Part shown: positions 6,006-58,951 of the stretch, piece after piece | Layout of the letters: every line of letters starts with the position of its first letter | Numbering within the stretch: the first letter of the stretch is position 1 | DNA from: a virus | Length of the DNA stretch: 64,000 nt | Virus record (IMG/VR): IMGVR_UViG_3300027970_000012 | Location: 1 to 64,000 of that record | Strand: one strand, 5' to 3' | Made by a program: the position numbers and the translations under genes | Notes under the pieces: model-generated | The model's input: the letters and a program-made list of their open reading frames with translations, nothing else | The model's database searches: none | What the model was told of the DNA's origin: nothing

Positions 6006-8120
6006 CTACAATTTAAAGTTTACAAAGGTATCAGTGTCAATATCTTGTTTGATTGCTCCTACTAAATACGAAATTTTTTCAGTCTCCTGTGGGCTTTCTT
6101 GAACTTCCTTACTATTCAACCAATGTGAAGTCCAGGGTAAAGGATTATTCTTTGCGGGAATATCAAACATAGGAGCTAATCCAATTGCCTTTCTTCTACG
6201 ATTTGCAATCCAATCCACGTAATTGAAAAGTAATTTGTCGTTCAATCCAATCATACTTCCATCACGAAACAGATACTGTGCCCATCGTTTTTCTTCATTC
6301 ACAGCAAGTTCAAACATTTTATCTACATAATGTTTCTCTTCCTGAATGATTCCAAGCATTTCTGGGTCATCTCCCTGCCTCCATTTAGTGAGAATTTTTT
6401 GTGTGAGATTTAAATGACAATTTCCAGATACAATGACTTTATTCTCATAACGAACAACTAACATTCCACTGGGAACGGAGACACAGAATACATCTCCATC
6501 ATAGTTATAAGTTGAAGTTGTTTTTGGTTTGGCTCCAGCGCAATAGTAATCTCTATCTTGAATGATGGTTATGCGATGAACATTCTTATATCTATCCTGT
6601 CTATGGTCTATTTGAATACCTCTATGTGCTCTTCTTCCAGAAAGAGCGGCAATGGCTTGAACCATATCAGCTACATCTGAATTTGTAGTAGAGAAATAAA
6701 TGTTAGAATAATCTCCATTTCTTAGATGACCATCCCAGTGAGAAAGCTCTTCTAGAAATTCAATACACCAAGCGCCACCAACTTCTTCTAGATTAACCCA
6801 AGAGAAATCCTTAACAACATCGTGCTCTATAGGAACCCATACAGTATACACGTAAGAAATTTTATCATTATGTATAAATTCTATTTTCGTATGTCTAAAT
6901 TGAATCTGCTCTAGAATATGGTCCAGCCTATCAATTTTTCTGGGTTTTGTAAGAGTAAAAGTTGTAATATTACACCCATTGAATTTTCCATTTCTGAGGT
7001 CTTTATTCTGTATTGACCCATCTGCCTGCAGAGCAATTTTAAATCTTTCAACATATGAAAGTTCGGCTCTACCACCAGTTTTAACCCCAGAAGCAATAAA
7101 ATGTTTCAAAAAAGAAGAATTAAATTCTTCCGCAGTATTTTCTTTAATGTCTCTAGTGATGCTATCTCTCCAGATAATTCTATGGTCTGGGGTGACTACC
7201 TGTTTGAAGTGTCCTTTGATATTGGAGAACTCATACACTAAACCAGAATGAGGTTTTTTAGTGTAATGTAATGGATGCACAAATTCAATTGAACCATTCG
7301 TATTATATTGAGCCACTTTTTCTGTCTGGTCTAGGTCCTCAAATTTCTTCCATCCAATTGGTGTTAAAACTTCAGTTCCTTTCACAAAACAGCTTTCATC
7401 ACGCGAAATCAGTGAGATAATCTTGGCCGAACCTTCCATCAGTTTTAGCTCACCAAAAGCGAAACTACAGGCGAAGCTCACATAAAAGCGAATTCCTTCA
7501 AGAATATTCACATTCATAATTGCCCGATATAGCTTCCGTTTCAGTTCTATTCTTGTGGATAATCCGACATCAATTCCTTCATTCGCAAATCTCCACATAT
7601 TTGTAGAGCCATATTGTTGAGCATAATTGATAAAGTCATTATAGGACTCAGTTACTGATGCCGCTCTCTCTAGAATCATCTCATCATGAATGATAGTATC
7701 AAATACTTCTGTTGGATTTGCATATACATTTTTGATGATATGAGTATATGAGCGACTATGAATCATCTCAAAGAACTCCCAGGCAGTCATCGCAGCTTCC
7801 AATTCAGGAAGAGAGCAATAAGGAATGAATGCCATTCCTGGTCCTCTTCCTTGAACGCTATCTAATAGAATTTGATACTTTAGATTTGAAGTGAATATAT
7901 GCTTCTGTTCTGGGCGAAGAGTCATATAATCAGATTTATCTTTCTGTAAAGAAATCTCCTCGGGTCTCCAGAAGAAACTCAATTGTTGTTGAGTGAGTTT
8001 TTCAAATTCTGGGTATTTGAATGTGTCATATCTTTGAACTCCTAGAGGAGCCCCAAAGAACATAGGTGATTTAGTCGTATCAATATCCTCGGTATTAAAT
8101 ACCGTCATTCCATTTATCAT
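6006..8120 (-). CDS. nrdB: Ribonucleotide reductase class I small subunit NrdB, with intein
   Basis: The 704-codon reading frame encodes a NrdB of about 380 residues plus a 324-residue in-frame intein. NrdB carries the diiron centre and tyrosyl radical that, with NrdA, reduce ribonucleotides for phage DNA synthesis. Extein features: HDEMILERAASV for the first carboxylate/His pair, NILEGIRFYVSFACSF for the middle helix, and SRDES + CHLN for the E..H iron ligands. The intein (residues 244-567) splits the last motif between DES and CHLN, so unspliced protein cannot build the metal site. NrdB lies directly downstream of fractured nrdA (9 nt gap), forming one operon. Confidence 0.95.
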   Translation of the reverse strand: MINGMTVFNTEDIDTTKSPMFFGAPLGVQRYDTFKYPEFEKLTQQQLSFFWRPEEISLQKDKSDYMTLRPEQKHIFTSNLKYQILLDSVQGRGPGMAFIPYCSLPELEAAMTAWEFFEMIHSRSYTHIIKNVYANPTEVFDTIIHDEMILERAASVTESYNDFINYAQQYGSTNMWRFANEGIDVGLSTRIELKRKLYRAIMNVNILEGIRFYVSFACSFAFGELKLMEGSAKIISLISRDESCFVKGTEVLTPIGWKKFEDLDQTEKVAQYNTNGSIEFVHPLHYTKKPHSGLVYEFSNIKGHFKQVVTPDHRIIWRDSITRDIKENTAEEFNSSFLKHFIASGVKTGGRAELSYVERFKIALQADGSIQNKDLRNGKFNGCNITTFTLTKPRKIDRLDHILEQIQFRHTKIEFIHNDKISYVYTVWVPIEHDVVKDFSWVNLEEVGGAWCIEFLEELSHWDGHLRNGDYSNIYFSTTNSDVADMVQAIAALSGRRAHRGIQIDHRQDRYKNVHRITIIQDRDYYCAGAKPKTTSTYNYDGDVFCVSVPSGMLVVRYENKVIVSGNCHLNLTQKILTKWRQGDDPEMLGIIQEEKHYVDKMFELAVNEEKRWAQYLFRDGSMIGLNDKLLFNYVDWIANRRRKAIGLAPMFDIPAKNNPLPWTSHWLNSKEVQESPQETEKISYLVGAIKQDIDTDTFVNFKL
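6420..7391 (-). mobile_element. NrdB cis-splicing intein with LAGLIDADG endonuclease
   Basis: Residues 244-567 of the NrdB frame. Block A is CFVKGTEVLTPIGWKKF with Cys1; block B is VVTPDHRI (TPDH); the end is VISGN-type (KVIVSGN) followed by Cys+1. The penultimate residue is Gly, not the usual His. Two LAGLIDADG-like motifs, FKIALQADGSI and LEELSHWDGHL, indicate a DOD homing endonuclease. It looks complete and should be a class 1 intein. Confidence 0.9.
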
Positions 8121-8129
8121 AATATTACC

Positions 8130-9218
8130 TTAAATTGAACAGCTATCACAAGTTTCATCTTGTGAGTTTAAAATTTCATCAATCAAATTTTGAGTTTCAT
8201 CCTTCGCAGAGGAATCAGTTTTTCCATCATATGTGTTTTGATAGTAAGCAGTTTTATGTCCTTTAGCATATGCGGAAAGAAAATCATTTACAATCACGCT
8301 CATTGGAACTTCATTATTTGGATAGTGCTCTGGATTGTAATTCCAATTTGCACTAATAGCTTGGTCAAAGAACTTCTGAATCATCGCAACAATATTAAAG
8401 TATCCCTCATTGGATTTAATATCCCACAATAGAGTATAATTATTTTTGAGTGTATTATACTGTGGGACGATTTGCTTAATAGGTCCTTTCTTTGATTGTT
8501 TGATGGATAGATAACCTCTAGGAGGCTCAATTCCATTTGTAGCATTAGAGGTCACACTAGATGACTCACTGGGAAGAATGCAAGTAAGAGTATTATTTCT
8601 CAGGCCATATTGAATGATACTCTGACGTAATTCTTCCCAATCGTGTTGATATGAGACCTCGCAGATATCATCAATTTCTTTTTTGTAGGTGTCTATGGGT
8701 AGAATTCCCTGAGAATATTTGGACTGATAAAAATCAGAACAAACTCCCTTCTCCTTAGCTAATTGATTTGAAGCCTTAAGTAGGTAATATTGAATACTTT
8801 CCGCAAGACCGTGAACTGCTTTCCAAGCTTCTGGGTCTTCATATTTGAATCCTAGTTTTGCAAGATAATGTGCAAGCCCAATAACCCCTATTCCTAAAGT
8901 TCTTCCTCCTTTTGCAGAAAGTTCAGCAGCTCTAATTGGATAGGACTGATAATCAATCAATTCGTCTAAAGACCTGACACACAAATCACACAATTCTTCA
9001 AGTTCTTCATCAGACTTAATTTTACCTACGTTTAAAGCTTTTAGAATACACAATGCAATTCTTCCGTTCTCATCTTCAAGACTTTGAATAGGTTTTGTTA
9101 GAAGAGTTATTTCTGTACAATTATGAATTAAGATATCATTCGCAAAGAAATTATGATTATCCTCCACAGTAATATCATATACTGGAATTTCGTTTTCAAG
9201 ATGTTCAATTTTTAGCAT
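8130..9218 (-). CDS. nrdA: NrdA C-terminal half with N-terminal split-intein IntC
   Basis: The 362-residue protein begins with a 33-residue IntC (MLKIEHLENEIPV...NDILIHN) followed by Cys+1 and the NrdA C-extein (CTEITLLTKP). That Cys corresponds to the catalytic thiyl-radical Cys of class I RNR (NLC-EI motif, E. coli C439). The C-extein has the NrdA core (GRTLGIGVIGLAHYLAKLG), PSESSS for the phosphate site, the tyrosine-containing region and a C-terminal redox pair (ETCDSCSI). It requires trans-splicing with the product of 9920-11545 for activity. The start overlaps the upstream endonuclease gene by 14 nt. Confidence 0.93.
   Translation of the reverse strand: MLKIEHLENEIPVYDITVEDNHNFFANDILIHNCTEITLLTKPIQSLEDENGRIALCILKALNVGKIKSDEELEELCDLCVRSLDELIDYQSYPIRAAELSAKGGRTLGIGVIGLAHYLAKLGFKYEDPEAWKAVHGLAESIQYYLLKASNQLAKEKGVCSDFYQSKYSQGILPIDTYKKEIDDICEVSYQHDWEELRQSIIQYGLRNNTLTCILPSESSSVTSNATNGIEPPRGYLSIKQSKKGPIKQIVPQYNTLKNNYTLLWDIKSNEGYFNIVAMIQKFFDQAISANWNYNPEHYPNNEVPMSVIVNDFLSAYAKGHKTAYYQNTYDGKTDSSAKDETQNLIDEILNSQDETCDSCSI
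9120..9218 (-). mobile_element. NrdA split intein, IntC half
   Basis: 33 residues: block F VYDITVEDNHNFFANDIL and block G IHN followed by Cys. It matches the form of the known NrdA-2 type split intein (DITVKDNSNFFANNILVHN, recalled from the fractured-gene literature). The partner IntN is at 9923-10240. Confidence 0.9.
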
Positions 9219-9865
9219 TTTTTTCTAGTTCGGTTAAGATAATTCGTCTGTGTCTATAATATGGATTGTAACTCAATCCTGTTTTTTCTTCAAGTATTTT
9301 AGAATAATTTATATACTTCCCACCAAATCTATTTTTTGAAAAGTGTTTTGGAAAAGTCAAATTTAAATGAGTTATCGCAAACTCTCTCAATACCATAATC
9401 CCAGGAATAAACTTATATATTTTAATAAATTTTATTCCTATTTCAATTAAATCCTCATCAGTTAATCCATTCCAATTTGGATTAGAATACCCAGTTGAGT
9501 TGAGTGTTAATGAATTAAACCAATTGTCCTGGACTTCTTTAGAACATCTGGGAATCATCCACCCGCCTGTTCCACCTAAAGTTGCATTATAACCTTTTTT
9601 AGTATTACTTTCAAAAAGTTTAATAAAATGGATTTCTTTTTCGTTTATGATATTAACATTCTCAGTTTGGTAAGTTTCAATAATGGATAAATCCCAACAA
9701 TCTTCACCATATTTTCTAATTGCGGAATGAAATCTAAATTTAGAGCCATTTCTTGCACAAGAGAGGTGCCGATTCCATCTATGTGATAGAGAATATTCAG
9801 TTTTTCCTATGTAGCATTTACTATTTTTTTAAATTTGTGATTTTATAAATGATGTGAGTTTTCAT
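9205..9865 (-). pseudogene. GIY-YIG homing endonuclease between the nrdA halves, frameshifted in an A7 run
   Basis: Read from the ATG at 9863-9865 the frame gives MKTHIIYKITNLKK and then TAG, right after a run of seven A. One base shifted, it continues SKCYIGKTEYSLSHRWNRHL...FHSAIRKYGED...EKEIHFIKLF...GYNATLGGTGGW and runs without a stop to 9205. Together these make a GIY-YIG nuclease: IIYKITNL / CYIGKT, catalytic Arg in HRWNRH, Glu in NEKEIHFIK, and a C-terminal DNA-binding region. The longest intact ATG frame is 9205-9558, only the C-terminal part. It is either a recent frameshift, a sequencing error in the homopolymer, or a slippage-dependent gene. Confidence 0.85.
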
Positions 9866-9866
9866 T

Positions 9867-9920
9867 ATATTAAGTGTAATCTCACGGCTAGTTATAATAT
9901 ATAGAGATTACACTTAATAT
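9867..9920 (-). repeat. Perfect 17-bp inverted repeat after the nrdA IntN gene
   Basis: 9867-9883 and 9904-9920 are exact reverse complements (arms containing TTAAGTGTAATCTC), with a 20-nt AT-rich loop. It overlaps the last base of the IntN stop codon and ends 2 nt before the endonuclease ATG. There is no T-run after it, so it is not a classical terminator. It could protect or process the mRNA, or sequester the endonuclease translation start. Confidence 0.85.
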
Positions 9921-11545
9921 CAATTGATTATTAATTCATCAGTTTCAACCAAATCTTTTACCATCACATATCCACGATTTTTCGTAAATACTTTGTGTCC
10001 TGGTGTGGCTACGATACTCTTACCCGTTTCTTCATCAGTAATTCTCATTACTTCTGATTTCGGAGAAGTCTGTGCAAATGCAGTGATTTGTTTCCATTCT
10101 AAAATATCACTTTTTATGTTATAAGAAAGGACTTTTATATTAGAGTAGCTATTCATAAATTTCGGCAAATCCTGAATTTCAATTCTATCCCACTCATCCT
10201 CATCAAGTAATACTTCTATTTTAGTATCACCAGAAACGCATAAATTGCTCATTGCAACTTGTTCTATAAATGAACTGTGAGAGTTGCAGTGGTCTATATT
10301 CATAATATAGATTCTACCAGTTTCCGCTCTTTCTTTGAGTAAGTCAAGAATCAGTTTTTGTGCCCCAACAACTTTTCTTGGAATGGTGAGGTCTTTTTCA
10401 TATTTTGTATAGAGTTCATCAAACTCGGGCATTCCGAATACATCATATAGACCAGGAACATTCTGAGGAGAGAAGAGTGTGATTTCTGCATTCTGAATGA
10501 ATCGTTCGTAGAATATCTTGGACAACTGAATGCCGTAATCCAACTTTCGGGCACGATTTTCCTCAGTTCCTTTGTTGTTCTTAAGAACGAGAACTTCCTC
10601 AATTTCAGTATGCCAAATTGGAAAATAAACCGTAGCGCTGCCTTGACGAATTCCACCTTGATGACAAGATTTGAGAGAGCTTTCAAATTTCTTCAGAAAT
10701 GGAATGATACCCGTTGATAGAACTTCTCCATTCCGAATCTTACTATTGATTGCACGTAGTCTTCCGATATTCAATCCAATTCCAGCTCTACCCGCCACAT
10801 ACTTCATCATCGCGCCATCAGAAGCAATGATGCTGTCTAGAGTATCGTCTACATCAATGAGAGTGCAGGAGGCAAATTGCCGAGATGGAGTTCTCACTCC
10901 CGCCATAATAGGAGTAGGAATATTAATTTTATGTTTGGAGACCGCATCATAATATCTCTTCACATAATCCATACGAATTGTTGAATTATAGTTTGAGAAC
11001 ATAGTCAGTGCAATCATCATATATGCAAACTGAGGCGTTTCGTATAGCGTTGATGTGCTTCGGTCTTGAACCAAATACTTATCTACGACTTGACGTAGAC
11101 CAGCATAAGTGAAGAGATAATCTCTATGATGGTCAATATATTCTCCAAGAGCATTTAGTTCTTGCTCAGTATACTTCTCAAGAACTTCCTTATCGTATAC
11201 ACCCAAATTTACACAATTTTGAATGTGTTCGTAGAATTTAGGATGGTCCTTAAGTCTACCATAGATTTTCTTACGAATAGAAAACAGTAGAAGTCTTGCT
11301 GCAACGTATTGATAGTTTGGAGAATCCAAAGAAATCAAATCGGATGCAGATTTGATGAGAATTTCCTGAATATCTGAGGTAGTAATTCCATCATACAATT
11401 GTATTCCTGAAGAAATTTCAACTTGCGATGCAGATACTCCAGATAATCCAAAGCAGGCTTCATCCACCATTCTATGAATTTTATCTAACAGGAGTATCTC
11501 ATCCTCTCCACTGCGCTTCTTAACTCTAATTTCTTTGTTGCTCAT
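9920..11545 (-). CDS. nrdA: NrdA N-terminal half ending in split-intein IntN
   Basis: The start at 11545 (MSNKEIRVKKRSGEDE) is chosen because AGGAGT lies 10 nt upstream; an in-frame ATG at 11575 sits inside the end of gp61. It encodes 435 residues of NrdA: an ATP-cone-like N-terminus, LFTYAGLRQVVDKY, PTPIMAGVRTPSRQFASC (containing the first redox Cys), and NIGRLRAINS. It ends at VAMSNL and is fused to a 106-residue IntN (CVSGDTKIEV...DELIIN) and stop. It binds nucleotide substrates and effectors once spliced to the C-half. It is downstream of gp61 in the same operon. Confidence 0.93.
   Translation of the reverse strand: MSNKEIRVKKRSGEDEILLLDKIHRMVDEACFGLSGVSASQVEISSGIQLYDGITTSDIQEILIKSASDLISLDSPNYQYVAARLLLFSIRKKIYGRLKDHPKFYEHIQNCVNLGVYDKEVLEKYTEQELNALGEYIDHHRDYLFTYAGLRQVVDKYLVQDRSTSTLYETPQFAYMMIALTMFSNYNSTIRMDYVKRYYDAVSKHKINIPTPIMAGVRTPSRQFASCTLIDVDDTLDSIIASDGAMMKYVAGRAGIGLNIGRLRAINSKIRNGEVLSTGIIPFLKKFESSLKSCHQGGIRQGSATVYFPIWHTEIEEVLVLKNNKGTEENRARKLDYGIQLSKIFYERFIQNAEITLFSPQNVPGLYDVFGMPEFDELYTKYEKDLTIPRKVVGAQKLILDLLKERAETGRIYIMNIDHCNSHSSFIEQVAMSNLCVSGDTKIEVLLDEDEWDRIEIQDLPKFMNSYSNIKVLSYNIKSDILEWKQITAFAQTSPKSEVMRITDEETGKSIVATPGHKVFTKNRGYVMVKDLVETDELIIN
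9923..10240 (-). mobile_element. NrdA split intein, IntN half
   Basis: 106 residues starting at Cys1. Block A is CVSGDTKIEVLL and block B is SIVATPGHKVFT (TPGH), ending DLVETDELIIN. It splits at the canonical position where a homing endonuclease would sit, and a free endonuclease gene does lie between the halves. This is the fractured-gene arrangement. Confidence 0.9.
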
Positions 11546-11559
11546 AATTGATTTGACTC

Positions 11560-12552
11560 CTAAATTCTTTTCCAACCTATCATTTTAGCTTTTGCCGCTA
11601 ATCCACGAAAAGTATTATCTTTAATAATATTTTCTGGAGATAATCCTGCAATTATCATATCATTCACATCTTTATACTCCAAATTTTTTGGCCAAACTAC
11701 AATAGAGTCTCCTGATTCTATTGTAGTTTCCATACGATGAACAATGTGTTTATTTCTTCTTTCATTATCATATACATAAACAAAATTACAATCTTTAAAC
11801 TTATGTAAAGTTTTGATATTCAAATCAGCTCCTACCATAGCTATAGAATTTGGTATAAACATACTATCAAATGGCCCTTCCAAAACATATATTGGAGAAT
11901 TCACATTCACATTGTCCAATCCATAAATCTTCGGTAGTTCATTATTTAGAATTACGGTGATGTACTTCACTGTAGAATTTTTGGACAGTGCTCTACCCTG
12001 AAATCCGAAGATTTGATTTTCATATATGAGTGGAATTACAATTCTACTCTCTTCATAATCTGTAGTCTCAAATGTGTGTATTTGAGAATTAGTCCACTTC
12101 TTAAAACTTTCACAGAAGTATAATTGATTCCATTTTGATTTGGGGATTTTTCTAGATTCAATATACTTTCGGGCAATATGAGTTTCGGATAACTCTGAAA
12201 TCGTGAGTAAATCAAAATACTTTTTACTAAATGTGGGTTTCTTTTTTGGTGGAGATGAAACTAATTTTAATGTTTTTGAACCTTTATTCTTAAACTTCTC
12301 AAAAACATATCTATCATATATCGATTTGTCTATGTCCTTCAGTACCATAGATATATTACAAGATTTTCCGCAATTATGACATTTATAATTATATGTGTCT
12401 TTCACTGGATATAAATATCCTCGCGCTTTGTTTTTATATCTTTCACTGTCTCCACAATAAAAACATCTAAAATTGTAGGTGTTACCTTTTTTTATAAATT
12501 TAAGTAGTTGTGGTGAAATTTCGGCAATATACTTTTCCTCAATAAATGACAT
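11560..12552 (-). CDS. 61: DNA primase gp61
   Basis: The 330-residue protein is a T4 gp61-type primase that makes RNA primers at the fork with gp41 helicase. The N-terminal zinc ribbon shows CFYCGDS (29-35) and CHNCGKS (58-64). A TOPRIM-type catalytic region follows: IYVLEGPFDSMFIPNSIA and FVYVYDNERRN with the acidic residues. FGFQGRAL marks the middle. It overlaps the upstream AUG context of nrdA only in the noncoding frame. A sigma-70-type promoter lies at 12576-12604, so gp61, nrdA and nrdB form an early/middle operon. Confidence 0.92.
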   Translation of the reverse strand: MSFIEEKYIAEISPQLLKFIKKGNTYNFRCFYCGDSERYKNKARGYLYPVKDTYNYKCHNCGKSCNISMVLKDIDKSIYDRYVFEKFKNKGSKTLKLVSSPPKKKPTFSKKYFDLLTISELSETHIARKYIESRKIPKSKWNQLYFCESFKKWTNSQIHTFETTDYEESRIVIPLIYENQIFGFQGRALSKNSTVKYITVILNNELPKIYGLDNVNVNSPIYVLEGPFDSMFIPNSIAMVGADLNIKTLHKFKDCNFVYVYDNERRNKHIVHRMETTIESGDSIVVWPKNLEYKDVNDMIIAGLSPENIIKDNTFRGLAAKAKMIGWKRI

Positions 12553-18237: not shown

Positions 18238-18777
18238 TTAGTATTTAAATTTCAAAAATTTATCCATTTTATTGGATTGTTCTTCAGGATTATAGTCGGA
18301 TTCTAATTCTTCGTCAAGAGCTTCTATTTGAGCAGATTGCTCAACGTTATATAGCTTCATTTTTGTTTTGTCTATACCTACTACAAATCTCTTGAATTTA
18401 GAAACATCATTATCACGATTTCGGAGTTGTTTGAACATTACCTGTCCTAAATTAGACAACTCTTCTGTATTAATGAGAGCAACTGCAACGTCAGCAGTCA
18501 TCATAGTTCCAAAACTATTTTTTGTTAGTATGCCATTACAATAAAATAAATTATCCCCCGATACTCCGATATTAATAGTTTCCAATTCTCCTAATTCTAT
18601 AATCTCTACAATTTCATCAACATAGCTTATGTTATTGTCGGTTATTGTATCTTTCTCTTGTTTTTCTTTGTCTAATTTAATCAACAATTCCGTAAGTTCA
18701 AATAAATCTAGATTACTCAATCCAGATGAAATCATTTTTTCTGCCGTTCTAAAACATTTTAATTCTAAATTATCCAT
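18238..18777 (-). CDS. 41: gp41 helicase C-terminal part with split-intein IntC
   Basis: The 179-residue product has an 87-residue N-terminal segment ending in a canonical IntC (LETINIGVSGDNLFYCNGILTKN), then Ser+1 and the 92-residue gp41 C-extein (SFGTMMTADVAVALINTEEL). The C-extein supplies the end of the DnaB-type ATPase core (arginine-finger region, VGIDKTKMKLYNV) and C-terminal tail. The first ~50 residues (MDNLELKCFRTAEKM..., LFELTELLIKLDKEK) are not intein-like and form an unusual extension. Only 9 nt separate it from the IntN ORF, with no endonuclease between. Confidence 0.92.
   Translation of the reverse strand: MDNLELKCFRTAEKMISSGLSNLDLFELTELLIKLDKEKQEKDTITDNNISYVDEIVEIIELGELETINIGVSGDNLFYCNGILTKNSFGTMMTADVAVALINTEELSNLGQVMFKQLRNRDNDVSKFKRFVVGIDKTKMKLYNVEQSAQIEALDEELESDYNPEEQSNKMDKFLKFKY
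18517..18777 (-). mobile_element. gp41 split intein, IntC half with N-terminal extension
   Basis: Blocks F and G (INIGVSGDNLFYCNGIL, TKN) end in Asn before Ser+1; the penultimate residue is Lys where His is usual. The canonical IntC would be about 35 residues, but this one is preceded by about 50 extra charged helical residues of unknown role. Confidence 0.88.
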
Positions 18778-18786: not shown

Positions 18787-20157
18787 CTATGAAAGTGAAT
18801 TTAATTTGTCGCCAGGAGTAAGCCCAGTATTGATTGATATTCTACCCCTATTTGTTGGAAATATATGGTCCTTACTCACAATAAGTTCTTTACCACTCTT
18901 AGTCCTAATTTTAACACAATCCTTGAATTTTTTATGATGAGTCAACATAACTGTCTTATATCCATCGTGTGAAGTAATTTGGTCTCCGACACAAATATCT
19001 TGAATTTGCTTTATTGCGCCGTCTCTAAGTTCAACTTTTTCATTCACATAGATGCATTCAGAAACATCAGTCATATCTGGGTCAGAGGATGTTGATCCAC
19101 CTCTACCACTTTGAGTAGCACTCAGAATGGGAACATCATACTCTACAGCAAGTGCTCTAAGTTCTTCTGCAACACTTTTAATATAAGTGTATGAGTTAAT
19201 ATTTGAGTTCTTCTTATATCTATTAGAAGCACAAATATTCAGATAATCAATGAAGATGATGTCTGGATGAAAATGTTTCTTCAGAGCAAGTTCACTCAAA
19301 AGACTTTTGAAGTGCCCAACGTGACCACATCCAGTTGGATATTCTTTAACAATAAACTTCCCGTGAGTTTTTTGAGCCAATTTAATAATTCTAGACTCAA
19401 ATTTTTCTTTCGGAATACTACTCAGTTCGGAGATATTCACATTCAGTAGATTTGAGTCTATTCTCTGAGCGACTTTCTCCTCCGACATTTCTAGACTAAT
19501 GTAGAGAACATTCTTACCCTGAGCTAGAAATGAGCTTGCAAAAGAACACATTGACAATGACTTGCCCGCATTAGGAGCAGACATAATCAGGAATAGGGTT
19601 TTCTTAGAGAGACCACCACCTGTAATTTTATTGAAGTAATCTATATCAAATGGAAGCTTATCCTCTTTACGAGTATAATATTCAAATCTTCTTTCATAGT
19701 CCTCAATTAAGTCGTGACCAATATGTTCATCAAATGAGATAGATAATGCATCCTGCAGAATTCCAGGAATAGCGTCTCTATCCTTAACCTCATCTCCACC
19801 ATCTGCAATACGAATACTTTCCATCAGTGCAAGATAGATTGCTCTGTCTCTACACCATTTCTCAGTGTTATCCACTAACCATTTTAAGTCTACGTGACTA
19901 TCATCTAGACTCCTAATGTAGTTGCAGATATTCTTATATCCATCTTCATTCAAATCTGTTCTCTTTTCAGTTTCAATGAGTAGAATTTCTTTTGTTGCTA
20001 AGTCTTCATAGGAAATGATGAACTTACTAATTTCCTCAAATAATATTCTTTCGTGAGAATTATCAAAATATTCAGGATTGATAAAGGGTAATACCTTTTT
20101 ATAATAATCACTATTGAAAATTAAATTTCGGAGAATAGTGGTTTCAATTTTTTCCAT
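18787..20157 (-). CDS. 41: gp41 replicative helicase N-terminal part with split-intein IntN
   Basis: The 456-residue product contains 367 residues of T4 gp41 (DnaB family) and an 89-residue IntN. Helicase features: Walker A SAPNAGKS (about 193-200), LYISLEMSEEKVAQR (motif 1a region), Walker B IIFIDYLNI (about 300-308), LSATQSGRGG. The extein stops at DMTDVSE, followed by Cys1 of the intein. gp41 unwinds the fork and loads gp61. Active hexamers require trans-splicing with 18238-18777. It lies downstream of the oxygenase gene with a 1-nt overlap. Confidence 0.93.
   Translation of the reverse strand: MEKIETTILRNLIFNSDYYKKVLPFINPEYFDNSHERILFEEISKFIISYEDLATKEILLIETEKRTDLNEDGYKNICNYIRSLDDSHVDLKWLVDNTEKWCRDRAIYLALMESIRIADGGDEVKDRDAIPGILQDALSISFDEHIGHDLIEDYERRFEYYTRKEDKLPFDIDYFNKITGGGLSKKTLFLIMSAPNAGKSLSMCSFASSFLAQGKNVLYISLEMSEEKVAQRIDSNLLNVNISELSSIPKEKFESRIIKLAQKTHGKFIVKEYPTGCGHVGHFKSLLSELALKKHFHPDIIFIDYLNICASNRYKKNSNINSYTYIKSVAEELRALAVEYDVPILSATQSGRGGSTSSDPDMTDVSECIYVNEKVELRDGAIKQIQDICVGDQITSHDGYKTVMLTHHKKFKDCVKIRTKSGKELIVSKDHIFPTNRGRISINTGLTPGDKLNSLS
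18790..19056 (-). mobile_element. gp41 split intein, IntN half
   Basis: 89 residues beginning CIYVNEKVELRDGAIKQI. Block B is LIVSKDHIFPT (S-K-D-H) and the end is LTPGDKLNSLS. The form is that of the gp41-type split inteins known from marine metagenomes (ending in a short GLK-GD tail). The insertion point is DVSE / SFG. Confidence 0.9.
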
Positions 20158-20714
20158 TATTTGTAATGCAGATACGTGCTTAGAATATATTTTGAATTGG
20201 AATTAGGCTCAAGTCCTCTATGTGGGAACATCCACATAGGAGGAAATATAATCAGAGTTCCTCTTTTGGGAACAACAGTAAGGTCTATAAATTCGGTTTG
20301 TCCTCCAGCTTCAACATCATTGAGATACCACATAAATGCAAGAAATCTACGAGCAGTTTCATAATCTTGAACATCTACGTGTGTATCAAAAGCTTCATTC
20401 TCTTCTGGAGAGTATCTCTTAATTCTGTAGTGTTCAAAAGCGTGACTCTCTGGAAATACACCTTTGTTCATAAATTCGTAATATGAATCTCTATACTCCA
20501 AAGTTTTTTGAATCAGATAGTTCTGAACATTATTTACCTCTTCCGATAATTCTCGGTTTTCGGTTAAATTGAATTGCGTGAAATTGGGTCTTCTATCGTT
20601 CTCAATTTTTTCTTGAAATTCAAATTGAGTATCAAATAGATTTACGAGAAAGTCGCATACATTTGGCTCCAAAGCTTCTTCATGTATTTGTATTAAATCA
20701 TTTAATTCAACCAT
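20157..20714 (-). CDS. 2-oxoglutarate/Fe(II) oxygenase
   Basis: The ATG at 20714 (MVELNDLIQIHEEAL) overlaps the uvsX end by 8 nt and is preferred over the ATG at 20741. The double-stranded beta-helix motif is clear: H-x-D in DTHVDVQDY, GGQTEFIDLTVVPKRG, distal His in FPHRGLEP and the 2OG-binding Arg after it. This family (prolyl-4-hydroxylase-like) is common in cyanophages. Substrates are unknown, with protein, nucleobase or host-metabolite hydroxylation all possible. It sits between uvsX and gp41 in the replication operon. Confidence 0.9.
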   Translation of the reverse strand: MVELNDLIQIHEEALEPNVCDFLVNLFDTQFEFQEKIENDRRPNFTQFNLTENRELSEEVNNVQNYLIQKTLEYRDSYYEFMNKGVFPESHAFEHYRIKRYSPEENEAFDTHVDVQDYETARRFLAFMWYLNDVEAGGQTEFIDLTVVPKRGTLIIFPPMWMFPHRGLEPNSNSKYILSTYLHYK

Positions 20715-22164
20715 ATGCAAACTCCGATTTTGCTGCTTCATTCAATGCTTCTAGAATTTCTGGAGTAAAATACTTTTCTGGATTACCGTAAATGGTTTTT
20801 CCATATTGAGTAGTTCCATCTGAAACTTTATACCGAGTTCCAACTTTTTCAAAAATATTATATTTTTCTGCTAATTCCAGAAGTCCGTAGTATCTATCCA
20901 ATCCTCTTTCGTCATAATATAGTCTCATTTCAACTTCTTGATTTTCTTTACTCAATCTAGATTTAAATGTTTTAGCTTTGAGAATAACTCCAACTACATC
21001 AGTTCCGTCTTTTTCCTTAGATTTAGAAAGTTCTAATATTGTAGAAGAGGAATAGATAAGCCCAGTTCCGCCACTTTGGACCTGAGGAGGTCCATATCCA
21101 CCCACATTAGCATATAGGTGATTAGTCACAATCATCGGAATCTTAGCCTGTCCGAGCTTCAGAGTTAACATCCTAAAGCAAGCCTTGATGAGTGCAGCTT
21201 TAGTCATATCCTTTGTATCTTTTTCTAACAAAGTATCATTAATTTCTTTATTCGTAGACAACATTCCTAGACTATCCAATACAAAAATACAAGAATTTCT
21301 TGCTTGTTCTGGAGTCTTAAGATATAAATCTACTGCTTTGAGTGCTTTGGTTCGGAAATCTTCAATCGTGACTACATTCAATACAATCACCCGAGCTAAA
21401 TCTATACCTCTACTTGCTAATAGGGATTTTGTTACTGCGGACTCAGTATCAAAATATAGACAATACCCTGTGGGATTGGCTTCTAGAAAATTCTTTACTG
21501 TTGCTAATGCGAACCACGTATTATGATGATAAATTCCAGATTTCGGATTACTAATATACCAATGTGGGGCATCTATTGAAATATCATACACACTCTCAAT
21601 TCCCAATGGTGTTTTTTCTACAACTACTTTTTTACCATATGTAGACATAATTTCTTTGGCATCAATTGCCGATACTTCAATTCCAGTATGGTAATCACAA
21701 AAATTATGATTAACTGAGCATTCAAATGTATCTTCGCCATCAAAATCTAGACGAATCACCTCGTTATTATGTTTAGTTACAACTTCATTAATTCTAGTAA
21801 ATCCAGTTGGGGTTCTAACATAAATTTCATCAGCTACTTCATATGGAACCTCGTGTTCTCCACTCCCATACAATTTATATAATTGCTCATATGTTAATTC
21901 AGATTCAATCAGGTCTTCATTTGCATATATTGTAATTTTTTCCGAGCCTCTAGCGCATTTCCCAGTTCCAGAAAGTCCAGAATATGCAGTAATTTTATTT
22001 CCAGATACTCCACCAAAGATACTTCCCGATACCAGAGCATTTAAAATATACGAACCAGTATCCACATACGTTTCTGTCTCATCAATATCTTTAGCTAATT
22101 GTGTATACTCTCCGCCAATTTCCTTCACTAAATCTGAAAGAAAATTTAAATTTTGTTCCGTCAT
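20707..22164 (-). CDS. uvsX: UvsX RecA-like recombinase with intein in the P-loop
   Basis: The 485-residue frame contains a 339-residue UvsX and a 146-residue intein. UvsX coats ssDNA and drives strand exchange and recombination-dependent replication. Walker A is GLSGTGK + T, cut by the intein exactly between Lys and Thr. Walker B is CIFVLDSLGML. The C-terminal part (QVQSGGTGLIYSS, the L2-loop region) is intact. A strong sigma-70 promoter precedes it, and the gene heads the uvsX-oxygenase-gp41-mazG operon. Confidence 0.94.
   Translation of the reverse strand: MTEQNLNFLSDLVKEIGGEYTQLAKDIDETETYVDTGSYILNALVSGSIFGGVSGNKITAYSGLSGTGKCARGSEKITIYANEDLIESELTYEQLYKLYGSGEHEVPYEVADEIYVRTPTGFTRINEVVTKHNNEVIRLDFDGEDTFECSVNHNFCDYHTGIEVSAIDAKEIMSTYGKKVVVEKTPLGIESVYDISIDAPHWYISNPKSGIYHHNTWFALATVKNFLEANPTGYCLYFDTESAVTKSLLASRGIDLARVIVLNVVTIEDFRTKALKAVDLYLKTPEQARNSCIFVLDSLGMLSTNKEINDTLLEKDTKDMTKAALIKACFRMLTLKLGQAKIPMIVTNHLYANVGGYGPPQVQSGGTGLIYSSSTILELSKSKEKDGTDVVGVILKAKTFKSRLSKENQEVEMRLYYDERGLDRYYGLLELAEKYNIFEKVGTRYKVSDGTTQYGKTIYGNPEKYFTPEILEALNEAAKSEFAYG
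21520..21957 (-). mobile_element. UvsX cis-splicing mini-intein
   Basis: Residues 70-215 of the frame: block A CARGSEKITIYANE, block B FECSVNHNFCDY (S-V-N-H), block F VYDISIDAPHWYISN, block G IYHHN followed by Thr+1. No LAGLIDADG motif is present; only a short linker replaces the endonuclease. Homing would need help from another nuclease, or it is now fixed. Confidence 0.92.
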
Positions 22165-33890: not shown

Positions 33891-33912
33891 TTAATATCAT
33901 ACTAACATATTT

Positions 33913-33919: not shown

Positions 33920-34016
33920 ATTAGCACAATATTGAAAGACTGCAAATATAACTTAGGGTTCCAGCAGTTCACCCTATTTAGCCAAGGAAATTACTTTCCA
34001 GGAGTGCCTCAAACTG

Positions 34017-34575
34017 ACACTAACATAAAATTAAATTGACCAGAAATTCCTAGAGGAAATCCATCAGAAAACGAACCTTGTGAAATAGGATAGGCTAGAA
34101 AAATTGCAGTTGCAGCAGCTACGGGAGCAGAATATGCAACAAAAATAAATGGACGCATTCCCAATCGGTATGATAATTCCCATTCACGACCCATATAAGC
34201 ATAAATGGCAATCATAAAATGGAAAACAATGAGCTGATATTCACCACCATTATAAAGCCATTCATCAAGAGACTGTGCTTCCCAGATTGGATATAGATGC
34301 AATCCAATAGCATTGGAACTAGGAATTATGGATGCTGTAATTATATTATTTCCATACATTAAAGAGCCAGAGACCGCCTCCCTAATACCATCCAAATCAG
34401 TTGGTGGTGCGGCAATGAACCCCAAAATAAAGCAAGTAGTAGCAACTAAAGCTGTCGGAATCATCAGAACTCCAAACCAACCGATATACAATCTATTATC
34501 AGTTGAGGTTATCCAGGAACAAAATCGTTCCCAGAGATTTTCGCCAGAACGGCGTGTAGCAATTGTAGAAGTCAT
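34017..34575 (-). CDS. psbA: psbA exon 1 (photosystem II D1 N-terminal part)
   Basis: 186 codons plus one base of D1: [35 protein letters not shown], transmembrane helices A-C and the pheophytin/P680 region ([40 protein letters not shown]). The reading frame runs 9 nt into the intron and then stops at TGA. After two splicing events the protein is about 360 residues. Phage D1 replaces photodamaged host D1 and keeps photosynthesis running during infection. A dual promoter lies upstream (34715-34748). Confidence 0.97.
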
Positions 34576-54361: not shown

Positions 54362-54407
54362 GAAAATTGATTTTTATCAGACCAGTTGTGTTAAATTATA
54401 CAAAAAT

Positions 54408-55655
54408 TTATCCCATATAAAATTCGGACGAAACATCTCCATACTCATCTAAATTCCATACTTCCATCGGCATATTTTCTGTATTCGCCATCATCCAAAC
54501 ATCTCCAGTTTCTTTTTCAACTGTAATTTCATCATCATTCTCTAATCCAGTATTAATAAATCCAAATGGAGCCATATCTTGTTCAATCTGCTCCTTCTGT
54601 TCAAGATACATTCTCTTACGAATGTCATTGTTGGTAATTTCTTTGAAGTATTCCTGAACAACTAACCAAGAGAAAATTACGATACACATACAAAGGTCAT
54701 CATTCGTTCCAATTTCAGCTTGATATGAATTATTTTTGGATATGAATGTAGTTAACTCACTAATAATATCAAAGTCTTCAATGATAAGTTTATTGTCCTC
54801 AATGATGGTTTTCATATTAGAACAACCCACTCTCTTTACTTGCTTGGACATTTTGATTCCTAACTGTGAGGTCTTACCCGAAAATCCTTGTCCAACTAAT
54901 TGTCCAGCTCTACCTCTCATAGAACACATTAGAAGATTTTCATACTCAAGTTCATATTGTAAGTCTTTGGCTACTTGGTCTCCTACACTTGCGATTTCAA
55001 TGAGAACATAAGCTTTGTTATATGAATTTGCTACCTTATAAATGATATCTGGAAGAAGTAGTGGCTTAAGTTCATTATTTTTATACTTTGCAACAATCTT
55101 GTATGGAATATTTGTGATGTCGTATATGATGAATGCGTGATAATCCTTACCCGTTCCTTCTGAAACGTCCACAGTCATAATGTAATTGTGTTCCTCTATA
55201 GGAGGTTCATACACATCAAGTCCTTCAGACCGAGTAATTGGGTCGTTGTATATTAGGTTTTGTAGTTTTGATGAGGTAATGAGCGTATCAACAGAACCTA
55301 GGAAACTACAGTTGTGTGATACTATATTGTTAGAATAATAAAGATGGTCTTCTCCAGAGTTGACAATATCAAATAATTCTACTTCTTTCTTAATGGTTCG
55401 GTATGATTTGAGAAATGTTCCACCATTCTTGGTAAAAACTTCTGTTGTCTTATTTAAATTCTTAGCTTTGACAATACCATCTATTGTAGAGAGTGGATGG
55501 TCCAAAGAGCACTTGAGTTCATTTCCGTCTTCAAATATTAAATGAATATATTTGTTCTTCTTAATCTTATTGACGCCCAGAAAAGATTGAAATCCATTTG
55601 GAGTTGAGATTTTAATCTTTTTATGATTTAATACTATGGTTTCTGGAAGCTTCAT
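54408..55655 (-). CDS. 17: Terminase large subunit gp17, C-terminal part with atypical IntC
   Basis: The 415-residue product has a 115-residue IntC followed by Cys+1 and the 300-residue gp17 nuclease half (CSFLGSVDTLITSSKLQNL). Nuclease acidic residues are visible: MTVDVSEGTGKDYHAF, VLIEIASVGDQ and IGTNDDLCMCIVIFSWL. It cuts concatemeric DNA at the start and end of packaging and must be joined to the ATPase half. The IntC includes block B (ELKCSLDHPLS), which is normally on IntN, so the split lies unusually early. The start is 25 nt after the stop of a small remnant ORF. Confidence 0.93.
   Translation of the reverse strand: MKLPETIVLNHKKIKISTPNGFQSFLGVNKIKKNKYIHLIFEDGNELKCSLDHPLSTIDGIVKAKNLNKTTEVFTKNGGTFLKSYRTIKKEVELFDIVNSGEDHLYYSNNIVSHNCSFLGSVDTLITSSKLQNLIYNDPITRSEGLDVYEPPIEEHNYIMTVDVSEGTGKDYHAFIIYDITNIPYKIVAKYKNNELKPLLLPDIIYKVANSYNKAYVLIEIASVGDQVAKDLQYELEYENLLMCSMRGRAGQLVGQGFSGKTSQLGIKMSKQVKRVGCSNMKTIIEDNKLIIEDFDIISELTTFISKNNSYQAEIGTNDDLCMCIVIFSWLVVQEYFKEITNNDIRKRMYLEQKEQIEQDMAPFGFINTGLENDDEITVEKETGDVWMMANTENMPMEVWNLDEYGDVSSEFYMG
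55311..55655 (-). mobile_element. gp17 atypically split intein, long IntC half
   Basis: 115 residues: IKISTPNGFQSFLGVNKI, block B CSLDHPLS, block F ELFDIVNSGEDHLYYSNNI, block G VSHN before Cys+1. It resembles the AceL-TerL-type IntC (STPNGF-like start, S/T-x-x-H, end VSHN-C), recalled from the literature. The partner IntN is only 34 residues (55775-55876). Confidence 0.88.
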
Positions 55656-55680
55656 TCAGTTAGGAACTTTATACATCTAT

Positions 55681-55800
55681 TTAATGTTTCTTGTTTATAT
55701 GAGTTCTGGTCTTAAATCCATATTTTTCTGCTATTTGTTGATGAGTCATATTTAGATTATGATAATCAAATTCAATCTGTTCCTTGGTTGGATAGTTCAT
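55681..55800 (-). CDS. 39-residue helix-turn-helix remnant between the terminase halves
   Basis: ATG to TAA encodes MNYPTKEQIEFDYHNLNMTHQQIAEKYGFK and TRTHINKKH. N-M-T-H-Q-Q-I-A-E-K-Y-G-F is a helix-turn-helix of the kind found at the N-terminus or linker of homing endonucleases (compare the KSIEQIASENNVS segment of the plus-strand endonuclease). The ORF overlaps the end of the IntN frame by 29 nt. It looks like what remains of an endonuclease gene, or a free HTH peptide. Confidence 0.5.
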   Translation of the reverse strand: MNYPTKEQIEFDYHNLNMTHQQIAEKYGFKTRTHINKKH

Positions 55801-58800
55801 TATAAAGTTCACCTATGGTGGTTTCAACTACAATACCATTAACCATTATATTTATCAAGGTTTCAGGTAGGAACGATTCAAATTCCTGATTCCATTGCTC
55901 TAAGCTCGTATTTGCGATACTTTGCTGCTTAAATTTCTCGTCTCTACCTGGAACCTCACTCCAATGAACCTCAGTTGGAACATATTCATTCTTACCACGT
56001 ATGGCGTCATTCCAAAATCTATAAAAGGTATTCATTCCTTTAGGGGTTTGGTGGCCTAAAAAGTTGTTGTATAATACCGAGTGCGCCCAAGAATCATCAG
56101 CAATATCGGGTAGAGAAACATCAAAAACTTCATTCTCACTTAATTTAATATCTTTAATTTCTAACCAAATCATATTTTCGTTCACATTATCATCAAAGAA
56201 TCTTTTAATATTTTCATTAGAGCATAACTCTTCTTTATTTTCTAATAGAAGTTGTCTAGAATAATTTTTAAATTCCTTATGCCTTCTTCCCAATGAAGGC
56301 ATTCCATTTTCAGCTAGAATTACTGCAGAATTTGGAATAATATCGGTTCTACTTCCAACTCTAGTTGAAGCTTTCAATAGATTGATTCTTTCTAATTTTC
56401 TTGGTAGAGAGAACCCAATTTGAGAGAAATATTCAAATGCATATTTACCGACTATTTCAATATCAAAATGAGTTGAACTAACTTTAACTCTTTCTGAAGG
56501 TCCAGAAGTAGCTATATAAATGCTACCTAGTATGCCCATATTAGCTAATAATAATTGAACTTGACGAATTAACTCTCTTGAAGTTGAAGTATATTTAACT
56601 CTTCCTTTATTATCAATACCTCCATCACCATCAAACATCCCTCTTAATAGAGCTGTAATGTTAGATTTAGACCAGGACAACACTTTATCTGGCAGTGTTT
56701 TTACTCCAGCTTTATTTGTAATATCAAATCCTAGTTCTTTAAGAAAATCTACAAGTTGCTTTGAATTGATGACATAATGTACATCATCAATCTTTTTATA
56801 TGGAACATTTAGAGTATTCAAACAATATGAAATATCGTCACCACAACTGATTACAATTTGTCCACCAGTAATATTGTGAGTATTCTTGGATACACAGTCT
56901 CGCGCATATCCCTCTGCAACATAAAGCCCGACAAAATATGCAATGTCTTCAGTTATATAATCACAACAAAATGTGTCAATACATTTTCCCTGTTCTGGAT
57001 GAAATCCGATGTAATCTTCATTTCCAAAAACTTGATGATTATATTTTATGGCTAAATAATCGCCTACTTTTAGATGTTTACTCTCTACGTAATTATACTC
57101 ATTGTTGTGAAACGCCCAAAGTTTATGAGTTTGAGAGCATTCTAATGTTTCATACCGAGTGGTTATAATATTTGTAGAAGAAGCTTGATGATTAACAATA
57201 ATATCACTGGTATAGAACTTATTCTTACCCATTACAGTATACTCTGGAACTTGATAAGCACCTGTTTTGGAGATATCAATAAGCCTCTCAATTTTTCTGT
57301 ATCCTTTATTTGTAAGAAGATAGGTATCTTTTGATACACAAGAAACCATAATTACCTTGGTGTACTTACCAGAAGTAATCGTAGGATATACAGAACTAAA
57401 AAACTCGTCTGCAATTTGATTCGGAATGAACGCAAATTCGTCCAGGAAGATTACATTATATGAACCTCCTCGGACGGCAGAACCAGAAGTAGAAGATGCA
57501 ATAATTTTTGAACCATTGTCCAGTTCTAGAGAAGCCTTATTCCAAATCTTAACTCCATGTTGCATCCATTTGGGTAGATTCTCATAGGCAAGCTTTAGTC
57601 TACCTAAAATATCTTTTGCAGTTTGAGCTTTGTTAGCTAGAATGGCGACATTAACATTATCATTGAATATGATATAGTGAAGTAGATATGAGATAGCTGT
57701 AGTCGTATTATGAGTAGGAATGAATGTTCTTCCACATAGAAATAAGTGAGTTTCACTATCTACTTGAATACACGCTACAGGAACACTCTCCACTTTTTCT
57801 ATATTTTGTATATAATGTCTGGTATTCTGTGGCCTACTTTTTCTCTCAAAATTTATTAAATTTAATTTTCTTGGAAGATTGAAAATACACTCCTTACTAG
57901 CAAATCTGATGGTATAGTACCAACATTGATTAATGAGTCTTCTACTTACTCTAGACTTTATTCCTAATGTAGCTAATAGTTCAACAACCTGAAGAATAAG
58001 CTCATAATTTTTTTGATAAAATTCAAATGATTGAGTTTTTGTAATTGACCCATCAGAATCCATCAGTCCTCTCAACAATTCCAATCTCTGGTCTACTGAT
58101 GCTCGTAGATATTCTTGAGGAATATGTTTATTTTTCAATAAACTATTTTCTTCCAATTCTTTATTTAACCCACGACACTTGAACCGAATACAATTCTTAT
58201 AGACTGTCTCCTGTTCAACATCAATTTTAGTTTTATAAAATTCATAATCATCTTTATGGGCAACGATTCTCCCCTCGTGAGACGAACCATCACCTAACCA
58301 AAGACCAAGAAGATATGGGTCTATTGGTAAATCTTTGGGAGTTCCGACCATTGGTTTGGAGCATTCAATATAAAATGCGCCAGCCACACCTTTTCCTCTT
58401 TTGTTGTTGGCTTTTTCAGAGTATCTTAAATACATTTCATTTGTATTGATAACTCTCTTTCCAGCAGTCCAATAAGAACTATTTACTTCCCACAGATGTT
58501 CTGCATCGGCAATAATTTCTTCACCATTATCAAAGTATATTTTATAACATTGATGATTTAACATCGTTTCTGTTTTAAATGTTACAGAAACTGGATTCCC
58601 ATTTGGAGCAAGTACCCTATCTCCGACCTGGATATCCCCAATTGTAGTCCATCCTTCAGGAGTTGGTATTGGAGTATCTAACGATAATGGCTTACCAACC
58701 TGGCGTGGTAATTTACAAATATTGAATCTATGTTGATGAAACTTCTTAATGAGTTTCTCTTGAAACTTATATAATTTAAATGGAATGAGACCTTCATCAA

Positions 58801-58951
58801 GGCTCACAATTTTAATATAATTTCTTGCAAAATATACTGGGTCCTTCTTACACTTAATGAACTCCTGAATATTTTCTGCAGTGAATTCAATGGATATATT
58901 TGCTCTCTTTAGAAGAGGATTACCAGAGTAAATTTCATTGGCGGCAGCCAT
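55772..58951 (-). CDS. 17: Terminase large subunit gp17, ATPase part with two cis inteins and a split IntN
   Basis: 1059 codons. The exteins total 266 residues: 1-87, 416-537 and 969-1025; they end at WNQEFE. Walker A is LPRQVGK + TTTAIS, interrupted by intein A. Walker B is VIFLDEFAFIP. The next motif is KVIMVS + TPKGMNTF, interrupted by intein B. After WNQEFE comes a 34-residue IntN and stop. Removing all inteins and joining to the C-part gives about 566 residues, normal for gp17. It powers DNA packaging with gp16 at the portal. Three splicing events are needed for one active protein. Confidence 0.94.
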   Translation of the reverse strand: MAAANEIYSGNPLLKRANISIEFTAENIQEFIKCKKDPVYFARNYIKIVSLDEGLIPFKLYKFQEKLIKKFHQHRFNICKLPRQVGKPLSLDTPIPTPEGWTTIGDIQVGDRVLAPNGNPVSVTFKTETMLNHQCYKIYFDNGEEIIADAEHLWEVNSSYWTAGKRVINTNEMYLRYSEKANNKRGKGVAGAFYIECSKPMVGTPKDLPIDPYLLGLWLGDGSSHEGRIVAHKDDYEFYKTKIDVEQETVYKNCIRFKCRGLNKELEENSLLKNKHIPQEYLRASVDQRLELLRGLMDSDGSITKTQSFEFYQKNYELILQVVELLATLGIKSRVSRRLINQCWYYTIRFASKECIFNLPRKLNLINFERKSRPQNTRHYIQNIEKVESVPVACIQVDSETHLFLCGRTFIPTHNTTTAISYLLHYIIFNDNVNVAILANKAQTAKDILGRLKLAYENLPKWMQHGVKIWNKASLELDNGSKIIASSTSGSAVRGGSYNVIFLDEFAFIPNQIADEFFSSVYPTITSGKYTKVIMVSCVSKDTYLLTNKGYRKIERLIDISKTGAYQVPEYTVMGKNKFYTSDIIVNHQASSTNIITTRYETLECSQTHKLWAFHNNEYNYVESKHLKVGDYLAIKYNHQVFGNEDYIGFHPEQGKCIDTFCCDYITEDIAYFVGLYVAEGYARDCVSKNTHNITGGQIVISCGDDISYCLNTLNVPYKKIDDVHYVINSKQLVDFLKELGFDITNKAGVKTLPDKVLSWSKSNITALLRGMFDGDGGIDNKGRVKYTSTSRELIRQVQLLLANMGILGSIYIATSGPSERVKVSSTHFDIEIVGKYAFEYFSQIGFSLPRKLERINLLKASTRVGSRTDIIPNSAVILAENGMPSLGRRHKEFKNYSRQLLLENKEELCSNENIKRFFDDNVNENMIWLEIKDIKLSENEVFDVSLPDIADDSWAHSVLYNNFLGHQTPKGMNTFYRFWNDAIRGKNEYVPTEVHWSEVPGRDEKFKQQSIANTSLEQWNQEFESFLPETLINIMVNGIVVETTIGELYNELSNQGTD
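55775..55876 (-). mobile_element. gp17 atypically split intein, short IntN half
   Basis: 34 residues, SFLPETLINIMVNGIVVETT through NQGTD. It carries block A only. Position 1 is Ser, where the known AceL-TerL-type IntN has Cys, and the E-x-x-x-E-L-Y element near the end fits that family. Confidence 0.85.
56048..57340 (-). mobile_element. gp17 intein B (class 1, LAGLIDADG, Gln-terminated)
   Basis: Residues 538-968 (431 aa): block A CVSKDTYLLTNKGYRKI, block B LECSQTHKLWAF, LAGLIDADG motifs FVGLYVAEGYA and LLRGMFDGDGGI, block F VFDVSLPDIADDSWAHSVLYNNF, end LGHQ before Thr+1. The last residue is Gln, not Asn, a rare functional variant. Confidence 0.9.
57707..58690 (-). mobile_element. gp17 intein A (class 3 candidate, Pro at position 1, LAGLIDADG)
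   Basis: Residues 88-415 (328 aa) inside Walker A. It begins PLSLDTPIPTPEGWTTIGDI; block B has DAEHLWEV (Trp), block F VACIQVDSETHLFL (Cys), block G IPTHN (Thr) before Thr+1. This Trp-Cys-Thr set is the class 3 signature. LAGLIDADG motifs are LLGLWLGDGSS and LLRGLMDSDGSI. Confidence 0.88.

Follow-up and report, generated by a model that had tools for sequence, protein, structure and literature searches.

The DNA examined here, called the window, comprises 64,000 nucleotides, positions 1 to 64,000 of the 91,444-base virus record IMGVR_UViG_3300027970_000012, and harbors on its minus strand the genes for NrdB (the small subunit of ribonucleotide reductase), NrdA, the helicase gp41, UvsX and the large terminase gp17. 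Inspection of these five genes revealed seven inteins, four contiguous and three split, all in reading frames between positions 6006 and 58951 (Table 1), as an earlier note on this DNA had listed them; the split ones are of the fractured-gene kind, also as that note had it, and of the atypically split kind. The major capsid protein is 72.6-76.8% identical to those of the best 30 of 2,498 matching records, 28 of which are Synechococcus or Prochlorococcus phages or cyanophages by name, and positions 1-25000 have no close DNA counterpart in the phage collection. By-eye reading of open reading frames (ORFs) of at least 100 aa in the other 27 kb of the record yielded no further intein. We consider it probable that the record represents a T4-like cyanophage in whose five essential genes seven codons have each acquired a selfish protein-splicing element, elements that persist by homing and then decay, with the UvsX element most likely rejoined and the first of three gp17 sites (gp17-a) turning over.

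Seven inteins in five conserved proteins

All inserts lie in frame within conserved proteins and are missing from homologues, and their ends are those of inteins, with a nucleophile at position 1 (or class 3 features in its place), a terminal Asn or Gln, and Cys, Ser or Thr at position +1. The penultimate residue is variable, being Gly in NrdB and Lys in gp41, and the chemistries are mixed, comprising Cys1/Cys+1, Cys1/Ser+1, Cys1/Thr+1, Pro1 with Thr+1, a C-terminal Gln, and Ser1/Cys+1. Insertion is into conserved motifs: UvsX and gp17-a are interrupted at the codon GK/T (slashes mark insertion points) of what we take to be Walker A, NrdA before the Cys of SNLC, and NrdB within what is presumably the RDExxH motif.

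Profile support differs among the elements. A curated intein cut-off (NCBIfam) is exceeded by the NrdA halves alone, at 38.0 and 38.3 bits; the gp41 N-part and both gp17 parts gave intein/Hint matches under the cut-offs (E 0.005 to 5e-7), and the gp41 C-part gave no intein match in Pfam, its final 34 intein residues being similar to the gp41-1 intein 6qaz (E 0.00038). No intein profile matched the inserts of NrdB and UvsX. NrdB is called from Pseudanabaena phage PA-SR01, where an insert 46.6% identical to that of the window occupies the same site. For UvsX the call rests on relatives and on a predicted HINT-type fold: an AlphaFold2 model (pLDDT, the predicted confidence score, 88.8; 11 aligned rows) retrieved inteins and intein-like domains at the top ranks in Foldseek, and in this model the intein has the HINT fold. 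For gp17-a and gp17-c, sequence matches to solved inteins support that fold. The profile TIGR01445 detected three of the seven inteins of this record and missed four, which makes its counts for 23 further records minimum values, and no claim of a record number was built on them. Both gp17-a and the second gp17 intein, gp17-b, have LAGLIDADG matches; the NrdB intein, with LAGLIDADG-like motifs seen by eye and no endonuclease family match, probably retains such a domain as well.

Table 1. Positions of the inteins, their host genes and associated elements in the window (IntN and IntC, N- and C-terminal intein parts)
Feature	Position	Length	Strand	Site, ends or basis
NrdB (ribonucleotide reductase small subunit) with contiguous intein	6006..8120		-	frames, relatives
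NrdB intein	6420-7391	324 aa	-	between SRDES and CHLNL, in RDExxH metal-ligand motif; Cys1, ends GN, Cys+1
NrdA IntC + C-half	8130..9218		-	intein_Cterm 38.3 bits, above cut-off
NrdA IntC	9120-9218	33 aa	-	frames and profile
GIY-YIG homing endonuclease gene between NrdA halves, frameshifted near codon 13	9205..9865		-	tblastn
NrdA N-half + IntN	9920..11575		-	SNL/C; intein_Nterm 38.0 bits, above cut-off
NrdA IntN	9920-10240	106 aa	-	frames and profile
gp41 IntC + C-part	18238..18777		-	9-nt gap to IntN ORF; no endonuclease gene
gp41 IntC	18517-18777	87 aa	-	frames
gp41 helicase N-part + IntN	18787..20157		-	E/S; intein profiles under cut-off
gp41 IntN	18787-19056	89 aa	-	frames
UvsX with contiguous intein	20707..22164		-	Walker A, GK/T
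UvsX intein	21520-21957	146 aa	-	relatives, predicted HINT-type fold
Candidate free-standing endonuclease ORF	31660..32358	232 aa	-	position only; no Pfam match
psbA, three exons	32404..34575; exons about 34018-34575, 32691-33134, 32405-32479		-	
psbA intron 2	about 32480-32690		-	90.5 bits
psbA intron 1	about 33135-34017		-	group I match, E 8.7e-6, 32.7 bits, under Rfam gathering score 50
HNH ORF in psbA intron 1	33222-33890		-	
gp17 intein c IntC + C-part	54408..55655		-	Cys+1
gp17 intein c IntC	55311-55655	115 aa	-	frames
Endonuclease-gene deletion scar between IntN and IntC of gp17-c	55655..55794		-	matches 370-aa ORF of L238
gp17 (large terminase) N-part + inteins a, b + IntN of c	55772..58951		-	
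gp17 intein c IntN	55772-55876	34 aa	-	Ser1
gp17 intein b	56048-57340	431 aa	-	Cys1...HQ/T, LAGLIDADG
gp17 intein a	57707-58690	328 aa	-	Pro1...HN/T, Walker A, class 3-like

The earlier note had raised the prospect that the inserts are artefacts of assembly. Such joining of different phages would fit the observation that the gp17-a allele is not the same in two matching contigs, L237 and L084, but it is exceedingly improbable on the other evidence. Two other contigs, G001 (48,483 b; equal to window 1-48483 with one mismatch) and L237 (exactly matching window 48357-58817), jointly reproduce 58.8 kb of the window with that single mismatch, L085 and L040 are collinear with window 44902-63300 and 11012-24716, respectively, and the insert junctions are codon-exact. 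The chimera explanation was dropped on these grounds.

Fractured inteins and the contiguous UvsX intein

Fractured genes, as described by Dassa et al. in 2009, are reportedly genes interrupted by split inteins, accompanied by a free-standing homing endonuclease gene. NrdA, gp41 and gp17-c have the host gene split by a split intein in this manner, and none of the three retains an intact endonuclease gene between the halves. We read them as fractured inteins whose endonuclease gene would have been frameshifted (NrdA), lost (gp41) or deleted with a scar (gp17-c). At the NrdA locus, ORF 9205-9558 is the C-terminal half of the broken gene, and the remnant is 69-70% identical over 209 residues (tblastn) to the endonuclease genes of L335 and L316, the L335 copy, which was the one tested, having a GIY-YIG match in Pfam (E 1.4e-12). 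Among 68 non-self NrdA inserts, such an ORF of 223-234 aa is present in 54 (56 by ORF size, less L377 and L379, whose ORF is unrelated), a further four are contiguous, one is split but lacks the ORF, and the remaining nine are arranged differently; in this and all such counts, loci lacking both flanks were removed. Of the 50 non-self gp41 inserts, 37 are longer than 1.6 kb and 13 are as short as that of the window; an ORF of 347-362 aa is present in 34. In the gp17-c scar, stretches corresponding to residues 4-38 and 356-370 of a 370-aa ORF in L238 are retained, and L238, L241 and L242 hold ORFs of 369-370 aa at this site. As the endonuclease ORFs are open in relatives, the split inteins of the window are read as derived relics.

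Several relatives show further arrangements. Longer NrdA inserts, each with a 253-254 aa ORF, occur in L371, L372, L374, L375, L339, L342 and L385, and in L375 the NrdA intein is contiguous and followed by a second interruption further downstream. The gp41 inserts of L279 and L292 are unlike the others, L279 apparently harboring two split-type inteins about 12 residues apart.

The usual view of the origin of split inteins is that contiguous inteins are broken by endonuclease genes. In the UvsX family, the window copy is contiguous and not two genes, whereas 12 of the 13 other viral loci are split; of the 11 non-self loci for which both flanks are present, ten are split, L234 and L236 are split as read from the C side only, and L235 is the only other contiguous copy. 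Seven of the split loci harbor related ORFs of 321-324 aa that are 50-100% identical, and reduced forms of the endonuclease gene are found in L227 (truncated) and L233 (a weak trace), with L232 having ORFs of at most 128 aa. All ten split forms with a readable IntN end it in a tail (such as KIKxxL) that the window intein lacks, running instead straight into sequence resembling the start of IntC. The junction reads CTGATTGAATCTGAATTAAC in the window and ATGATTGAATTAGAATTAAC in L005; in protein, DL-IE-SELTYEQ in the window corresponds in L005 to DTIEGIKKRL and a stop in IntN and MIELELTYEQ at the start of IntC. Because the IE codon pair is present both within the IntN tail of L005 (ACAATAGAA) and at its IntC start, a deletion between these short similar stretches would yield the arrangement of the window. 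Such a deletion would have removed the endonuclease gene together with the surrounding stop and start codons, rejoining the intein. Rejoining of a fractured intein after endonuclease loss is the most likely origin of the UvsX intein, for which the trees and the junction are supportive, not decisive.

In a tree that included the exteins, the window grouped with the split L005, L231 and L226 (support 99/97 for protein, 98/95 for DNA; unrooted), and in an intein-only tree it fell into a set of seven of which the other six are split (94/96, unrooted). With L236 as outgroup, placing the window alone as basal was rejected (p 0.03), as was placing L235 alone as basal (p 0.012). The duplicate self loci L253 and L224 were left out of the trees, alignment A1 was made without L228, L230 and L231, and the outgroup tests omitted L230, which has the same endonuclease protein as L228 and a similar intein region. 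Vibrio phage vB_VmeM-32 was dropped as a potential outgroup because its C part reads as gp41.

Several points limit the case for rejoining. Neither a basal position of both contiguous rows with L236 as outgroup (p 0.21) nor a single clade of the two (p 0.33) was rejected, the intein-only trees are weak, and L235 sits on a long branch. Divergence at both synonymous and nonsynonymous sites is lower in the intein than in the extein in all eight comparisons, which fits movement more recent than the extein split, or exchange, together with purifying selection. Intein and extein histories may thus differ, so that the well-supported extein-included grouping rests partly on exteins, and the combined tree is weakened as a sole proof of rejoining. 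Moreover, endonuclease genes are mobile and may have inserted repeatedly at one place into an ancestral contiguous intein.

On that account, the contiguous UvsX intein would be ancestral, and one or more endonuclease insertions would have fractured its relatives, with no rejoining. The non-rejected basal placement fits this history, as does L235, which is contiguous and divergent and retains a segment like the IntN tail. We nevertheless judge it unlikely, since the window groups among split forms, its junction resembles an IntC start down to the start-codon position and lacks the tail of the ten split forms, the outgroup L236 is split as read from the C side, and the reduced intermediates L227 and L233 exist. 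The direction of change from split to contiguous appears the better reading of these sequences. With somewhat better than even confidence, we further propose that intein splitting is naturally reversible, the trans UvsX intein having been healed to cis by deletion of the endonuclease across a short repeat, that L235 may be a second independent rejoining, and that the gp17 Walker A codon is contested by unrelated inteins in one phage population. Rejoining, if true, would make intein splitting a two-way process and provide natural cis/trans pairs with which to gauge the cost of splitting.

Proposed allele turnover at gp17-a and the question of common control

Downstream of the gp17-a site, L084 differs from the window by one mismatch over 4,484 nt, inteins b and c included. 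At the site itself, L084 carries an unrelated fractured Cys1 intein (39-aa IntN, 115-aa IntC) with an endonuclease-like ORF of 345 aa from a TTG start (DUF559 match, E 6e-5, above the cut-off), while L237, whose record name bears the same sample number as that of G001, has the window allele. In sample 3300028114, L237 ends 127 nt from the site, a distance equal to the overlap between G001 and L237, which hints at a branch there. Immediately upstream, eight of the 22 nt adjoining the site are changed, all synonymously, and the next 107 nt are identical, for one mismatch in 4,591 nt apart from this tract. This tract of eight synonymous changes is best explained as a likely co-conversion footprint of homing, and the site is, to judge from the two alleles, still turning over. 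Near-identical contigs with different inteins at one codon beside a recoded tract would constitute a clean natural footprint of homing.

The residue at +1 bears on the same site. The window has Thr where all 77 empty relatives have Ser; at the NrdB site it has Cys against Gln (49) or Ile (5) in all 54 empty relatives, and at the other five sites its residue agrees with that of the empty loci in at least 71 of 73 cases. Two points limit what can be drawn from gp17-a: the flanking codons gave no direction for the allele replacement between the window and L084, and in L238 and L247 the gp17-a inteins of this class 3-like family have Ser at positions 1 and +1 in place of Pro/Ala and Thr, which speaks against a strict need for Thr+1.

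Presence or absence at each site in relatives, a comparison raised in the earlier note, was examined with loci from three extein queries (UvsX, gp17 and NrdB) after removal of the self or near-self loci L004, L169 and L084; in two queries the loci are the best 80 of about 600 candidates and hence sample the near relatives without amounting to a census. Most sites are empty, with 5 of 474 site-locus pairs occupied and 469 empty: NrdB 0/54, NrdA 2/46, gp41 0/65, UvsX 1/77, gp17-a 1/78, gp17-b 0/79 and gp17-c 1/75. Because some loci share a contig (L212/L333; L268/L345) or look near-identical, the numbers of loci should not be read as numbers of independent phages.

The earlier note had proposed that a shared dependence on splicing acts as a common control, for example by temperature or redox, with several inteins starting with Cys. 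The latter holds for five of the seven but fails for gp17-a, which begins with Pro, and gp17-c, which begins with Ser. A shared post-translational switch over deoxynucleotide supply, replication, recombination and packaging would agree with this prevalence of Cys1, with the placement of all elements in enzymes of one replication-packaging programme, and with the report that AceL-TerL, an atypically split TerL intein, splices best at 8 degrees C (PMC11766414). It is nonetheless very doubtful in view of the mixed nucleophiles, the near absence of the inteins in relatives, the unrelated allele at the gp17-a site of the near-identical L084, and the decay of the endonuclease genes, and the sequences yielded nothing in favour of shared temperature or redox control. 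Individual inteins could well respond to conditions.

Selfish elements account for the endonuclease remnants better than regulators do. Each intein would excise itself in cis or join two separately made halves in trans, so that the host enzymes would stay functional, and splicing activity is suggested by the motifs, family membership and low nonsynonymous divergence. The elements would spread by homing, after which their endonuclease genes decay, as the remnants, empty sites and gp17-a footprint indicate, and this pattern agrees with the published homing cycle as outlined in PMC7765530. The seven elements span several stages of the homing cycle, so that the cycle can be studied within one virus.

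Relation to known systems and neighboring features

Each element is of a known kind: fractured genes, the AceL/GOS-TerL type, class 3 inteins, and psbA introns. As in fractured genes, NrdA and gp41 are broken by split inteins in a phage, with an endonuclease ORF between the halves in many relatives; unlike there, the window endonuclease is frameshifted, deleted or gone, and the UvsX member is contiguous. According to PMC3653736, the fractured-gene work reported nrdA inteins from ocean metagenomes, and a Campylobacter phage nrdA is reported to have two putative inteins.

The gp17-c intein, with a 34-aa IntN, a 115-aa IntC and a TerL host, is an atypically split TerL intein (IntN 15-37 aa according to PMC13014065); it resembles AceL-TerL, GOS TerL and Cat, matches CatC 6dsl (E 3.3e-19), and has Ser1/Cys+1 as described for GOS TerL. 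It differs from these in sharing its gene with two further inteins and in the endonuclease scar between its halves. Class 3 inteins are defined in PMC5050341 by a Trp-Cys-Thr triplet in blocks B, F and G and no nucleophile at position 1. The gp17-a intein has Pro1 and, by eye, HLW, ACI and Thr+1; it resembles class 3 inteins of phage terminases and DnaB, matches the class 3 DnaB intein 6bs8 (E 1.5e-27), and is 63.8% identical to the terminase intein of Synechococcus phage B23. Unlike those cases, an unrelated fractured Cys1 intein occupies the same codon in a near-identical contig.

In the UvsX family the break follows an early strand and appears to lie close to the S1 position described for VidaL (6vgv), and VidaL ranked second in the Foldseek search. 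Unlike VidaL, the window copy is contiguous; homology to VidaL by sequence was considered and is unsupported, VidaL not being among the 19 sequence matches.

Phages with many inteins are not unique, the L243 contig having four intein C-terminus matches. In the titles and abstract openings of the open-licence literature searched, we found no description of rejoined split or fractured inteins, of many-intein phages, or of a near-isogenic allele pair as at gp17-a. On the L243 contig (G024, 99,158 b), two of the four matches lie at the gp17-a and gp17-c sites, and in L241 a short insert that looks class 3-like by eye lies about three codons upstream of the gp17-a site.

Both psbA introns named in the earlier note are present, the first by a group I match and the second at 90.5 bits. 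The locus resembles that of cyanophage S-PM2, described in PMC6083498, in having a group I intron in psbA and an ORF beside the gene, there F-CphI; it differs in its second intron and in the HNH ORF inside an intron, and the 232-aa ORF is likened to F-CphI by position only. This ORF lies downstream of exon 3 and not within intron 2. A PhotoRC-II RNA motif (61.9 bits) lies upstream of psbA at 34609-34703 on the minus strand.

Between head genes, window 47528-48369 comprises about 840 nt where L085 has about 13 nt, near the meeting point of G001 and L237. Beside the major capsid gene, a 502-aa ORF (43182-44690, plus strand) is the only opposite-strand ORF longer than 130 aa; it gave weak helix-turn-helix matches only, and its middle resembles Vsr/DUF559-type endonucleases by eye.

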